From Candidatus Omnitrophota bacterium (lineage in GTDB: Bacteria; Omnitrophota; Gorgyraeia; Gygaellales; Profunditerraquicolaceae), in the NCBI GenBank assembly GCA_028712255.1, contig JAQTQJ010000013.1:1-44696 (forward strand): a stretch of DNA of 44,696 nucleotides, given 5' to 3'. The notes below the pieces were generated by a model. That model had not been told where the DNA came from. It saw only the letters and a list, made by a program, of their open reading frames with translations, and searched no databases. The stretch's first letter is position 1, and each line of letters starts with the position of its first letter. Below, one piece after another: positions 4,889 through 9,363 of this stretch. The position numbers were made by a program, and so were the translations under genes.

Positions 4889-6091
4889 ATGCGTATTTTT
4901 ACTTTTAGTTCCAAAGATGAAATTGAAAAAATAATGGGTGATATTGGTGTCGATCCATACGGGATCAAAATCATGTTGCCTAAAGCGCAAACTTTTTTAA
5001 TCCGCTTAAATACCGTAAACAGTATTTGCGCCAACATTCTCAAGCAAGAAATGCTTTCCTTAGGTGCCGAAGCGGCAATTACCAGAGGCGCATTAACCGG
5101 AAAAATAAAAAAGACAGGTGTTCTTATGTTTGGATCTTTTGCCCAATTTAAATTACTTTCGCAAAAGATAAAATCCCAACCGTTTGGCCTACATAAGCTC
5201 AGTGAAGAACTTAATGAAAATATAAAAAATTATTTTAAAGATAGGTTTATTTTACCTTTAAAAACATCTACTTTGAACTTAAGCAAAAAGACCCATATTA
5301 TGGGCATCATTAACATAACTCCAGATTCATTCAGCGGTGATGGTTTGTATAACCTAAATACAAAAAATTACCCTACTTTAGCTCTTATAAAAGCACAAAA
5401 AATGGTATCAGAAGGAGCCGATATTATTGATTTAGGAGGTCAATCTAGCCGGTCGGGGGTAAAAAATATCAGCATCAAAGAAGAGCTTATACGGCTTAAA
5501 CCCGTAGTAAAACTACTGGCTAAAAAAATCAACAAACCAATCTCTATCGATACCACCAGGCCCCAAGTAGCCCAAGCTTGTTTAGATTTAGGTGCGCAAA
5601 TAATTAATGATGTCTGCGGACTAAGGGATAAGCGTATGATTAAAGTAGTTGCCCGATATAGGGCTGCTGTAGTTATTATGCATATGCAAGGAGTACCCCT
5701 AAATATGCAGAAATTAACCACATATCATTCTCTAATTGACGACATAGCCCTCTATTTAAAAAATGCCATCGATGCAGCCCAAAACGCAGGAATAAAACCT
5801 GAAAAAATTATTATTGATCCAGGGATTGGATTCGGAAAAAAATGCGAACATAATCTTGAAATCATAAAAAGGTTGGGAGAATTTAAGACGTTAGGCAAGC
5901 CTATCCTTATTGGCACATCCCAAAAATCATTTATTGGTAAAATTTTAGATGCTAAAATAAAAGATAGATCCAGTGGTACCCTGGCCACTTGCGTAATGGC
6001 TGCGCAAAATGGAGCAAATATAATACGGGTACATAATGTAAAAGAAACAAAACATTCTTTAAAAATGGTGGATGCAATAAAAAAATGCTGA
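4889..6091 (+). CDS. folP: Dihydropteroate synthase with an N-terminal extension
   Basis: DHPS condenses p-aminobenzoate with hydroxymethyl-dihydropterin diphosphate in folate synthesis. The catalytic TIM barrel starts near residue 135. MGIINITPDSFSGDG is the pterin/diphosphate loop, followed by DIIDLGGQSSRSG, KPISIDTTRP, IINDVCGL, IIDPGIGFGKK and a C-terminal IRVHNVKET. The protein is 400 residues, against about 270-290 for E. coli-type enzymes, because about 120 extra residues precede the barrel (MRIFTFSSKDEIEKIM...). I recognise no motif in the extension, though longer DHPS forms are known in some bacteria. The gene lies 8 nt after ftsH and overlaps cdaA by 7 nt, so it probably belongs to the same operon. 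Confidence 0.93.
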   Translation: MRIFTFSSKDEIEKIMGDIGVDPYGIKIMLPKAQTFLIRLNTVNSICANILKQEMLSLGAEAAITRGALTGKIKKTGVLMFGSFAQFKLLSQKIKSQPFGLHKLSEELNENIKNYFKDRFILPLKTSTLNLSKKTHIMGIINITPDSFSGDGLYNLNTKNYPTLALIKAQKMVSEGADIIDLGGQSSRSGVKNISIKEELIRLKPVVKLLAKKINKPISIDTTRPQVAQACLDLGAQIINDVCGLRDKRMIKVVARYRAAVVIMHMQGVPLNMQKLTTYHSLIDDIALYLKNAIDAAQNAGIKPEKIIIDPGIGFGKKCEHNLEIIKRLGEFKTLGKPILIGTSQKSFIGKILDAKIKDRSSGTLATCVMAAQNGANIIRVHNVKETKHSLKMVDAIKKC

Positions 6092-6843
6092 TAAATATTT
6101 TATTATTATACTGGAAACCGGTAACTGAAGTTATTATCCTATGGCTGTTTATTTACCACATATTGCTTTTTTTCGTGGGTACACGCGCCATACAAGCCTT
6201 ACGCGGCATAATTATACTTTTGCTTGCCTTCTTTATTTTTCAGAAATTTGAATTTATTGTCCTAGATAGGTTATTTAGAGAGCTTTTTGGGATATCCGTC
6301 ATAGCGATATTAATCATTTTCCAACCAGAGATAAGACGAGGGTTGGCTACTCTGGGTAAAGGGCGAATTTTTAAGTACAACTTAAAAGAAGAGGATTTAA
6401 ATTTTATCGTTAAGCAAGTTTCCTTATCTTGTGAAAATCTTGCGCAAAACAAGCTTGGGGCTTTAATTGCCATAGAAAAAAATGATAGCCTGACAAGCTA
6501 TATCCAGAGTGGTGAAATTATAGATAGCCGCATCTGTGCAGATTTAATAGAAGCAATATTTACCCCCAACAATCCTCTTCATGATGGAGGCTTAATTATC
6601 CAACGTGCTCGGATTGCCTCCGCAGGCTGCATTTTCCCGTTGACTACAAATCAAGAAATAAGCCGGATTTTTGGGACACGCCACCGCGCAGCATTAGGCT
6701 TAAGCGAAGAGACTGATGCATTACTAATCGTAGTCTCCGAAGAAAGGCGCGATATATCTGTAATTTATCGCAAGAAATTTTATCGAGATCTAGGCGGTGC
6801 AGAACTTGAATTAAAAATTAAGGAGATACTTTCAGAAAAATAA
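6085..6843 (+). CDS. cdaA: Diadenylate cyclase CdaA (c-di-AMP synthase)
   Basis: CdaA joins two ATP into cyclic di-AMP at the membrane. The 252 residues open with about three membrane helices (to residue 75), then the DAC domain. Motifs include PLHDGGLII with D167-G168-G169, and GTRHRAALGLSEETD with R199-H200-R201. Most relatives have DGA in the first motif; here it is DGG, a small change of unknown effect. In many bacteria cdaA is followed by cdaR (ybbR) and glmM. Here a 40-residue CdaR-like peptide follows 2 nt later, then pdxJ. It overlaps folP by 7 nt. A probable partner phosphodiesterase is encoded at 41559. Confidence 0.95.
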   Translation: MLINILLLYWKPVTEVIILWLFIYHILLFFVGTRAIQALRGIIILLLAFFIFQKFEFIVLDRLFRELFGISVIAILIIFQPEIRRGLATLGKGRIFKYNLKEEDLNFIVKQVSLSCENLAQNKLGALIAIEKNDSLTSYIQSGEIIDSRICADLIEAIFTPNNPLHDGGLIIQRARIASAGCIFPLTTNQEISRIFGTRHRAALGLSEETDALLIVVSEERRDISVIYRKKFYRDLGGAELELKIKEILSEK

Positions 6844-6845
6844 AA

Positions 6846-6968
6846 ATGAATAAAACAGGTGTCTTTTTCCGTATCATTTGTTTTTTTACCACCCACCCTT
6901 GGCTAAAGCTTATTTCTCTACTGCTGGCAATCATTGTTTGGTTTTATGTTAAAGGGGATAAAACATAA
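6846..6968 (+). CDS. 40-residue membrane microprotein resembling the N-terminal anchor of CdaR/YbbR
   Basis: An ATG starting 2 nt after the cdaA stop opens a 40-codon frame: MNKTGVFFRIICFFTTHPW, then LKLISLLLAIIVWFYVKGDK. The second part matches the membrane anchor at the start of YbbR/CdaR proteins, which typically read KLISL-LAI-LWFYV-G. CdaR is the membrane partner of CdaA and is usually encoded directly after it. None of the repeated extracytoplasmic YbbR domains follow; the frame stops and pdxJ begins 7 nt later. It may be a functional stripped-down CdaA partner or the remnant of a deleted cdaR. No good Shine-Dalgarno is present, so translation may be coupled to cdaA. Confidence 0.6.
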   Translation: MNKTGVFFRIICFFTTHPWLKLISLLLAIIVWFYVKGDKT

Positions 6969-6975
6969 TCCGATC

Positions 6976-7689
6976 ATGCCTAAACTAGGGGTAAATATTG
7001 ACCATATAGCGACTTTACGTCAGGCCCGGGGAGGAATTATTCCTGATCCTGTATATGCGGCTTATTTATGTGAAAAAGCAGGAGCTGACAGCATAGTGGC
7101 GCACTTAAGGGAAGACCGCAGGCATATTCAAAATAAAGATATTGAACTATTACGGGAAAATATCAAAACTAAGCTCAATCTTGAGATGTCTATTGCTCGG
7201 GATATTGTTAAAATTGCCTGTAAGATTAAACCCTATCAAGCAACGCTTGTCCCTGAAAAAAGAAAAGAACTGACTACTGAGGGTGGTTTAGATGTAATCG
7301 CTAACTCAAAAAATATCTTTTTGACTTTAAAGAAATTGGAAAGTTCTGGTATCCGAGTAAGCTTATTTATTGATCCGGATAAAAAACAAATAGATGCTTC
7401 TAAAAAAATCGGAGCCGGAATCATCGAGCTGCATACCGGCCGGTATGCAGACGCAAAAAATAATAAAGAAAAAGAAAGATTTCTTAATCAATTAAAAATC
7501 GCTGTTAACTACGCAAAATCAAAAGAACTAGTAATTAATGCCGGCCATGGCTTGGATTATTCAAATTCTAAAGATGTTGCCAGAATAAAAGGAATAGAAG
7601 AGCTCAATATCGGATACTCCATTATCTGCAAGGCCCTCTACATTGGCCTATTCAAAGCAGTTAAAGAGATGAAGGAGCTGACAGAATAA
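6976..7689 (+). CDS. pdxJ: Pyridoxine 5'-phosphate synthase
   Basis: PdxJ condenses 3-amino-2-oxopropyl phosphate with 1-deoxyxylulose 5-phosphate to form pyridoxine 5'-phosphate, the final ring-closing step of the DXP-dependent vitamin B6 route. The start at MPKLGVNIDHIATLRQARGG is the family's standard N-terminus; the frame is open further upstream but that part overlaps the preceding microprotein. Other conserved blocks are IVAHLREDRRHIQ, LNLEMSI, VPEKRKELTTEGGLDV, SLFIDPD, IELHTGRYA and NAGHGLDY. A GGGG run lies about 19 nt upstream, too far for a normal Shine-Dalgarno. Length (237 aa) is normal. It overlaps acpS by 1 nt. Confidence 0.95.
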   Translation: MPKLGVNIDHIATLRQARGGIIPDPVYAAYLCEKAGADSIVAHLREDRRHIQNKDIELLRENIKTKLNLEMSIARDIVKIACKIKPYQATLVPEKRKELTTEGGLDVIANSKNIFLTLKKLESSGIRVSLFIDPDKKQIDASKKIGAGIIELHTGRYADAKNNKEKERFLNQLKIAVNYAKSKELVINAGHGLDYSNSKDVARIKGIEELNIGYSIICKALYIGLFKAVKEMKELTE

Positions 7690-8045: not shown

Positions 8046-8862
8046 AACTCATAAGGGAGATTACGGGCATATTTTAATTTTGGCCGGCTCAATCAGATTT
8101 TCCGGGGCCGCTTTACTTTGCGCTGAATCTGCCCTGCGCGCGGGAGCGGGTCTGGTAACTTTGGGCACGCCTAAAGGCCTTTGCCCGGCCTTAATTAGCA
8201 AAAAACCAAAAGAAGTAATGATTCTACCATTACCGGAGACTAAGGAAGGCACATTGAGCCTGGCAGCTTTTGCTAAAATTGATCATTTCCTTAAAAATGC
8301 CGATGTATTGATAATTGGCCCGGGATTGGGAAAAAATAAATCAACTTATGCGCTAATAAAGAAAATTATTAAAAAAACACGCTTTTCCATGGTTATTGAT
8401 GCCGATGCGCTTAATGCCTTGAATAACCACTTGGGAATACTTAAAGCGCATAAAGGAGAGATTATTTTAACTCCGCATCAAATGGAGATGTCCAAGCTTT
8501 TCTCAATCAATGTTAATTTGATTAAAAAAAATAGGAAATTGATTGCTAATAAGTGCGCAAAACATTATAATAGTATAATTATCCTTAAAGGGCATAGCAG
8601 TGTTGTAACTGATGGCAATAAGCACCTTTATATAAATAAAACAGGAAATCCCGGCATGGCAACCGCAGGAAGCGGAGATGTGCTTAGCGGTATTGTTGGG
8701 GCTTTTTTAGCCCAGGGATTGAATACTTTTAGGGCAGCAAAATATGCGGCATATATTCACGGTTTAGCCGGTGATATAGCGGCAAAAGATAAAACGCAAA
8801 TGGGATTGATCGCTTCGGATATTATTAACCGGATTCCGGATGCGATTAAAAAATCTAGCTAG
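8008..8862 (+). CDS. nnrD: ADP-dependent NAD(P)H-hydrate dehydratase
   Basis: NnrD repairs hydrated NAD(P)H (NADHX/NADPHX) using ADP. It has the ribokinase-like fold: HKGDYGHILILAGS, GAALLCAESALRAGAGLVTLG, DVLIIGPGLGKN, VIDADALNAL, ILTPHQMEM, ILKGHSSVVTDG and NPGMATAGSGDVLSGIVGAFLAQG. The start at MRLPTQLLRRKVKTHKG fits the family; the frame is open further upstream but only within acpS coding sequence. The NnrE epimerase domain that is often fused at the N-terminus is absent, so epimerase activity must come from elsewhere. The 38-nt overlap with acpS suggests translational coupling. The gene ends one base before tRNA-Thr. Confidence 0.93.
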   Translation: MRLPTQLLRRKVKTHKGDYGHILILAGSIRFSGAALLCAESALRAGAGLVTLGTPKGLCPALISKKPKEVMILPLPETKEGTLSLAAFAKIDHFLKNADVLIIGPGLGKNKSTYALIKKIIKKTRFSMVIDADALNALNNHLGILKAHKGEIILTPHQMEMSKLFSINVNLIKKNRKLIANKCAKHYNSIIILKGHSSVVTDGNKHLYINKTGNPGMATAGSGDVLSGIVGAFLAQGLNTFRAAKYAAYIHGLAGDIAAKDKTQMGLIASDIINRIPDAIKKSS

Positions 8863-8863
8863 T

Positions 8864-8936
8864 GCCGGCGTAGCTCAGTTGGCAGAGCGGCTGTTTTGTA
8901 AACAGCGGGTCGGGGGTTCAATTCCTCTCGCCGGCT
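8864..8936 (+). tRNA. tRNA-Thr (TGT)
   Basis: Acceptor GCCGGCG pairs with CGCCGGC. The D arm is AGCTCAGTTGGCAGAGC, the anticodon stem GCTGT/ACAGC encloses loop TTTGTAA (anticodon TGT), and the T arm has loop TTCAATT. CCA is not encoded. The 3' half from 8904 onward recurs as a perfect 35-nt direct repeat at 9051. Confidence 0.95.
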
Positions 8937-9085
8937 TAATATTGAAAATACACGACCCGAAAGGGGTGTGGGGAAAAATTTTCCCCACGTCTTCGGGGTA
9001 ACAGCGACGAACGAATGTGAGGAGCGCCATAGGGGCAGAGCCCCTTTGGTAGCGGGTCGGGGGTTCAATTCCTCTCGCCGGCTTA
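8904..9085 (+). repeat. Direct repeat of the tRNA-Thr 3' half flanking a 112-nt spacer
   Basis: Positions 8904-8938 and 9051-9085 are identical over 35 nt. The repeat runs from the 3' side of the anticodon stem through the tRNA end, with weaker similarity for about 12 nt more. The repeat unit is 147 nt. The spacer holds a perfect palindrome (8968-8988) and a GGGGC/GCCCC hairpin near 9032-9046, and has no coding sequence. Identity from the anticodon arm to the 3' end is the pattern of attachment sites left by tRNA-targeting tyrosine recombinases, but no integrase is present. Confidence 0.7.
8968..8988. repeat. Perfect GTGGGGAAAA-A-TTTTCCCCAC palindrome
   Basis: A 21-nt sequence with perfect 10-bp arms around a single central A, inside the spacer between tRNA-Thr and its duplicated 3' half. 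It could be a protein-binding operator, a transcription terminator for tRNA-Thr, or the core of a small element. Nothing in the sequence decides between these. Confidence 0.65.
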
Positions 9086-9110
9086 TTATTGAAATAAGGA
9101 AAGAATAAAC

Positions 9111-9193
9111 GGGCAGGTACCCAAGTGGCCAAAGGGGGCAGACTGTAAATCTGCTGCACCTGTGCTTCAGAGGTTCGAATCCTCTCCTGCCCA
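9111..9193 (+). tRNA. tRNA-Tyr (GTA)
   Basis: Acceptor GGGCAGG pairs with CCTGCCC. The anticodon loop CTGTAAA gives GTA. There is a long type-II variable arm (CTGCACCTGTGCTTCAG region) and a T arm AGAGG-TTCGAAT-CCTCT. At 83 nt it is the expected length for bacterial tRNA-Tyr. CCA is not encoded. Confidence 0.95.
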
Positions 9194-9292
9194 TTTGATA
9201 TTTTACTTTTTTGCAACATACAACGCTTCGGAGTGACAGAGAGGCGAAGCCCCTATGGGGAGCGAGCCCTCTAATATGTTACAGCGAGCGAC

Positions 9293-9363
9293 GCGGGAGT
9301 AGTTCAGTGGTAGAACAATAGCCTTCCAAGCTATATATGGGGGTTCGATTCCCCTCTCCCGCT
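9293..9363 (+). tRNA. tRNA-Gly (TCC)
   Basis: Acceptor GCGGGAG pairs with CTCCCGC. The D arm is AGTTCAGTGGTAGAAC, the anticodon loop CTTCCAA gives TCC, and the T arm GGGGG-TTCGATT-CCCCT is typical. CCA is not encoded. The 99-nt spacer before it (9194-9292) contains a CCCC-TAT-GGGG hairpin and no gene. Confidence 0.95.

Follow-up and report, generated by a model that had tools for sequence, protein, structure and literature searches.

A 40-residue frame between cdaA and pdxJ in Omnitrophota as a probable minimal CdaR without YbbR domains

CdaR (YbbR) is the partner of the diadenylate cyclase CdaA (DacA) in the Bacillota, where its gene lies directly 3' of cdaA. The two proteins contact each other via the transmembrane parts of both (PMC10243994, PMC6368335, PMC8573169), and in S. 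aureus a suppressor of ybbR loss maps to TM3 of DacA (PMC5207132). The N-terminal helix of the Bacillota proteins carries the pattern K/R-x2-[SA]-x3-A-x3-W, likely the site of contact with the transmembrane part of CdaA. The mode of CdaA regulation by CdaR has been called unclear (PMC8573169), and both activation and repression have been reported. Canonical CdaR proteins comprise several extracytoplasmic YbbR domains; the Listeria protein, 454 aa long, contains four such stretches. In streptococci, CdaA–CdaR fusions physically link the cyclase to the CdaR helix (PMC10243994). The literature searched contained no work on c-di-AMP or YbbR from Omnitrophota.

The short frame downstream of cdaA

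We considered a stretch of 44,696 nucleotides from a Candidatus Omnitrophota bacterium (contig JAQTQJ010000013.1), below referred to as the window. The features of the locus, in window coordinates, are as follows.

4889..6091, + strand: folP, dihydropteroate synthase with an N-terminal extension, upstream of cdaA and overlapping its start
6085..6843, + strand: cdaA, membrane diadenylate cyclase with the CdaA_N transmembrane part and the DAC domain
6846..6968, + strand: mini-cdaR, predicted 40-aa single-pass membrane protein, the CdaR anchor without YbbR domains
6894..6956, + strand: conserved helix core HPWLKLISLLLAIIVWFYVKG, residues 17–37 as defined by conservation, overlapping the predicted helix 18–38
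6976..7689, + strand: pdxJ, pyridoxine 5'-phosphate synthase, the usual gene after mini-cdaR

The mini-cdaR frame, translated as MNKTGVFFRIICFFTTHPWLKLISLLLAIIVWFYVKGDKT, begins with ATG, ends with TAA, and is separated by 2 nt from the cdaA stop codon and by 7 nt from the pdxJ ATG. The tight fit between the two genes and the intact start and stop had been pointed out in the first-pass annotation, and the coordinates and the CdaA and PdxJ matches agree with that description. The upstream product matches TIGR00159 with 200.9 bits (cut-off 188.8) and the DAC domain with E-value 1e-38. The N-terminal extension of FolP comprises about 130 aa (window positions 4889–5290) ahead of the pterin-binding domain; it is also found in relatives, the folP match beginning at residue 1 in several loci. 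Further downstream in the window, at 8864–9363, there is a cluster of tRNA-Thr, tRNA-Tyr and tRNA-Gly; the antisense ORFs at 8859–9219 over this cluster are probably spurious.

The 40-mer falls into none of the Pfam or NCBIfam families. Its homology is limited to the N-terminal anchor of CdaR/YbbR; PF07949 (YbbR) does not match it, in agreement with the initial description of the frame as a CdaR anchor minus the YbbR domains. Mini-CdaR resembles the Bacillota CdaR in the position directly 3' of cdaA and in the helix pattern, but it is only 40 aa long and has no YbbR domain at all. The CdaR of some other Omnitrophota and of Verrucomicrobiota (134–160 aa) has the same site and the same anchor, but retains one YbbR domain.

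Nor was a replacement for the short form found elsewhere, a full-length YbbR having been sought in the whole genome (1.71 Mb, 96% complete): PF07949 had no match at E≤10, although this absence is not absolute, since the Pfam model misses diverged copies. YbbR is likewise absent among the listed members of the genus with stand-alone CdaA. A second copy of the anchor is represented in this genome by weak fragments only (E 0.008 with an internal stop; E 0.27). As for degradation, the genome encodes a 326-aa DHH/DHHA1 protein (G000:C1:168942-169169), a candidate c-di-AMP/pApA phosphodiesterase, and no PgpH-type 7TMR-HDED domain was found in it.

Conservation, selection and length classes

Stand-alone cdaA loci of relatives from the same genus, family, order and class were selected by CdaA alone, and 43 of them had enough downstream sequence. 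The anchor frame is directly 3' of cdaA and open in all 43, so the same short frame, which the first-pass annotation had proposed to look for, is retained from the genus to the class level. It has an ATG, GTG or TTG start in 42 loci. The short form is likewise seen in 42 loci, the only YbbR ectodomain being that of L043 (147 aa). L029/L082 likewise have an open, conserved frame, yet no ATG, GTG or TTG occurs close to where it begins, which may reflect either initiation at an unusual codon (ATC/ATA) or a mistake in the assembly.

The substitution pattern of the short form indicates purifying selection. At the genus level its pN/pS is 0.31 (33 codons) and that of the 21-codon helix core is 0.16, versus 0.91 and 1.54 for the same DNA in two shifted frames; these values are uncorrected and the synonymous sites are near saturation, hence the true ratio is probably below 0.31 and 0.16, respectively. 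The measurement bears on a scenario raised at the outset, in which relatives would have full-length cdaR at this site and the present copy would drift as a deletion remnant. Full-length cdaR at the site does occur in relatives of other classes, whereas the supposed drift is not observed, the short form being constrained and old. Among 135 short ORFs, 121 begin at most 30 nt from the cdaA stop, overlaps of 8 or 4 nt being the commonest; a ribosome-binding site is present in 51 of the 135 and is weak in many members.

Searched with a profile built from the short ORFs, 220 of the 237 Omnitrophota genomes turned out to have the anchor. The profile also matches the N-termini of 138–160 aa and 307–323 aa CdaR proteins encoded at the same site. 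Over 175 distinct Omnitrophota loci the CdaR length is trimodal, with nothing between the classes. The short class (27–91 aa, 138 loci) has no ectodomain. The middle class (138–160 aa, 17 loci) has one YbbR domain and the long class (307–323 aa, 20 loci) two or three YbbR stretches in the proteins tested with Pfam. Long CdaR occurs in other classes of the phylum, and middle and short forms are intermingled in the class to which the window belongs. In other phyla CdaR is mostly 216–716 aa long; the Verrucomicrobiota proteins have 134–142 aa, apart from an 80-aa form, with no YbbR domain detected in it, that occurs in one Verrucomicrobiae genome.

The CdaA tree implies at least ten switches between ectodomain-bearing and ectodomain-free forms, its deep branches being weakly supported. 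Two separate cases are better supported, namely L239 within family f12 (support 90) and L241 of f48, which lies next to the full-length f50 (support 91). Since other phyla mostly have long CdaR, loss of the YbbR domains is favoured over gain, although the CdaA tree cannot prove the direction. In family f14, the mini-CdaRs L163, L164, L168, L171, L173, L176, L179, L189 and L198 have a polar, K-rich C-terminal tail of 28–43 aa in place of YbbR, possibly a reduced outside module.

The link to CdaA and the helix motif

In one locus, L079 (QZM4_1.bins.76), CdaA and mini-CdaR form a single 300-aa protein, identical to L071 of G268. It is a mini form of the CdaA–CdaR fusions, which in Omnitrophota otherwise have the architecture CdaA_N-DAC-anchor-YbbR and, as in streptococci, link the cyclase to the CdaR helix; the window, in contrast, has two separate genes and no YbbR. 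The L079 fusion was folded on the CdaA alignment rows alone, the anchors being misaligned in the mixed CdaA/anchor alignment.

Most genomes in which the anchor ORF is missing have no stand-alone CdaA either, but encode a CdaA_N-DAC-anchor-YbbR fusion at another site. In ten of them (G011, G015, G037, G038, G044, G064, G161, G217, G219, G244) stand-alone CdaA is replaced by a longer DAC protein. The two of these ten proteins that were scanned with Pfam are both CdaA_N-DAC-YbbR fusions, and YbbR is in the same frame as DAC in G037, G217 and G219. Further, folP directly adjoins pdxJ in all nine of these ten genomes in which pdxJ was found, which means that cdaA and mini-cdaR are absent together. 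Hence they behave as a unit, the folP–pdxJ site having either both genes or neither. The other anchor-less genomes include some in which CdaA was not found, one with a fragment at a contig end, one with a diverged CdaR and one whose assembly is possibly contaminated. Mutual information between CdaA and the anchor gave no signal standing out from phylogeny.

The fusions with YbbR, about 490–520 aa long (CdaA_N, DAC, anchor helix and YbbR; L277 and L278 from G015 and G011, L274, L276, L279, L281, L282), replace the folP-cdaA-cdaR-pdxJ site in some genomes, and a few genomes (e.g. G030, G034) have both types. In G011 the fusion at L046 is followed 3' by a 333-aa ORF that, by sequence appearance, resembles DHH-family (NrnA/DhhP-like) phosphodiesterases, so a pair for c-di-AMP synthesis and degradation is possible there.

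Because of the site, the anchor homology and the inheritance as a unit with cdaA, mini-CdaR belongs to the CdaR lineage; having no YbbR domain, it falls outside PF07949, which is defined by that domain.

The short forms share the motif K-x2-[SA]-L-x2-A-x3-W-x-Y, corresponding to K21, S/A24, L25, A28, W32 and Y34 of the ORF. Among the 138 short forms, K is retained in 135, S/A in 137, A in 135, W in 130 and Y in 134. The same K, S/A, A, W and Y are all kept in full-length Omnitrophota CdaR. In twenty CdaR proteins of other phyla, K/R and S/A are found in all 20, A in 19 and W in 18, while Y is not kept. A mere membrane anchor would require hydrophobicity alone, whereas here specific residues are kept. 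Conservation has a periodicity of 100 degrees, corresponding to one helix face, which is marginal (p ~0.05).

AlphaFold2 predicts helices at residues 4–16 and 18–38 of mini-CdaR (pLDDT 81). The net charge is +2.7 on the N side and +0.7 on the C side, the N side being more positive in 111 of 137 cases. The N end should be inside, since the DAC domain in the L079 fusion is cytoplasmic. The protein is probably single-pass with the N-in/C-out topology. A structure search found no solved structure containing the CdaR anchor.

Possible roles of the isolated helix

We consider it likely that the ORF is a genuine minimal CdaR, which has lost YbbR and kept the helix, the latter most likely packing on CdaA and setting its assembly, orientation or activity. 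A short interfacial helix (residues 4–16) would be followed by one transmembrane helix (18–38), oriented N-in/C-out. The latter would most likely pack on the transmembrane bundle of CdaA via K21, S/A24, L25, A28, W32 and Y34. Mini-CdaR would then be the intramembrane contact module alone, with no outside sensor or input. Less favourable to this reading are the marginal periodicity, the lack of a mutual-information signal, the weak ribosome-binding sites of many members and the missing standard start codon in L029/L082. An analogy is provided by KdpF, AcrZ, MgrB and other small single-pass membrane regulators, which are helices of tens of residues that tune a membrane protein; their sequences and partners are unrelated to mini-CdaR.

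Alternatively, the helix could be a non-regulatory structural subunit or assembly chaperone of CdaA, involved in insertion, stability or oligomer geometry, the regulatory part having been the lost ectodomain. This is possible, if somewhat doubtful. The contact part alone is kept, and helix packing typically involves motifs such as [SA]-x3-A with W; moreover, c-di-AMP production by DacA in E. coli was not clearly affected by YbbR of S. aureus (PMC6368335). On the other hand, B. subtilis CdaR has been reported to increase the output of CdaA in E. coli (PMC8316131), so CdaR, though not necessarily its helix alone, can alter activity.

It is improbable that the helix pairs with another protein providing a YbbR ectodomain in trans. 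Some relatives do have YbbR elsewhere, in the CdaA–YbbR fusions, but none is detected in this genome at E≤10 or among the listed genus members with stand-alone CdaA, with the reservation about diverged copies made above.

Still less probable is a leader peptide, or one for translational coupling, serving pdxJ and having no function as a protein. The tight fit between cdaA and pdxJ and the overlap with cdaA in many genomes would suit such a role. However, selection acts on the amino acid sequence, and mini-cdaR is lost along with cdaA while pdxJ remains. This reading was rejected because the peptide persists at L045, where the next gene is not pdxJ, and is fused to CdaA in L079.

Finally, a decaying cdaR deletion remnant kept by chance, as might be suspected from the full-length cdaR at the same site in other classes, is hardly credible and was rejected given purifying selection (pN/pS 0.16–0.31) and phylum-wide conservation, the frame being open in 43 of 43 CdaA-selected loci, specific residues being kept over 138 short forms and the CdaR lengths falling into discrete classes.

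Returning to the minimal CdaR, the Omnitrophota represent a natural truncation experiment, in which the YbbR domains are lost while the helix and a few of its residues stay. This would make the intramembrane contact the essential part and suggests that CdaR works via the membrane, not via its outer domains. In practical terms, this provides a minimal construct of 30–40 residues with named residues to mutate; ORFs as short as mini-cdaR may be missed by gene finders. More tentatively, a lone CdaR helix may suffice for the control of CdaA, with YbbR an optional add-on that has been repeatedly lost, so that most Omnitrophota of this class could use a sensor-less intramembrane micro-regulator.
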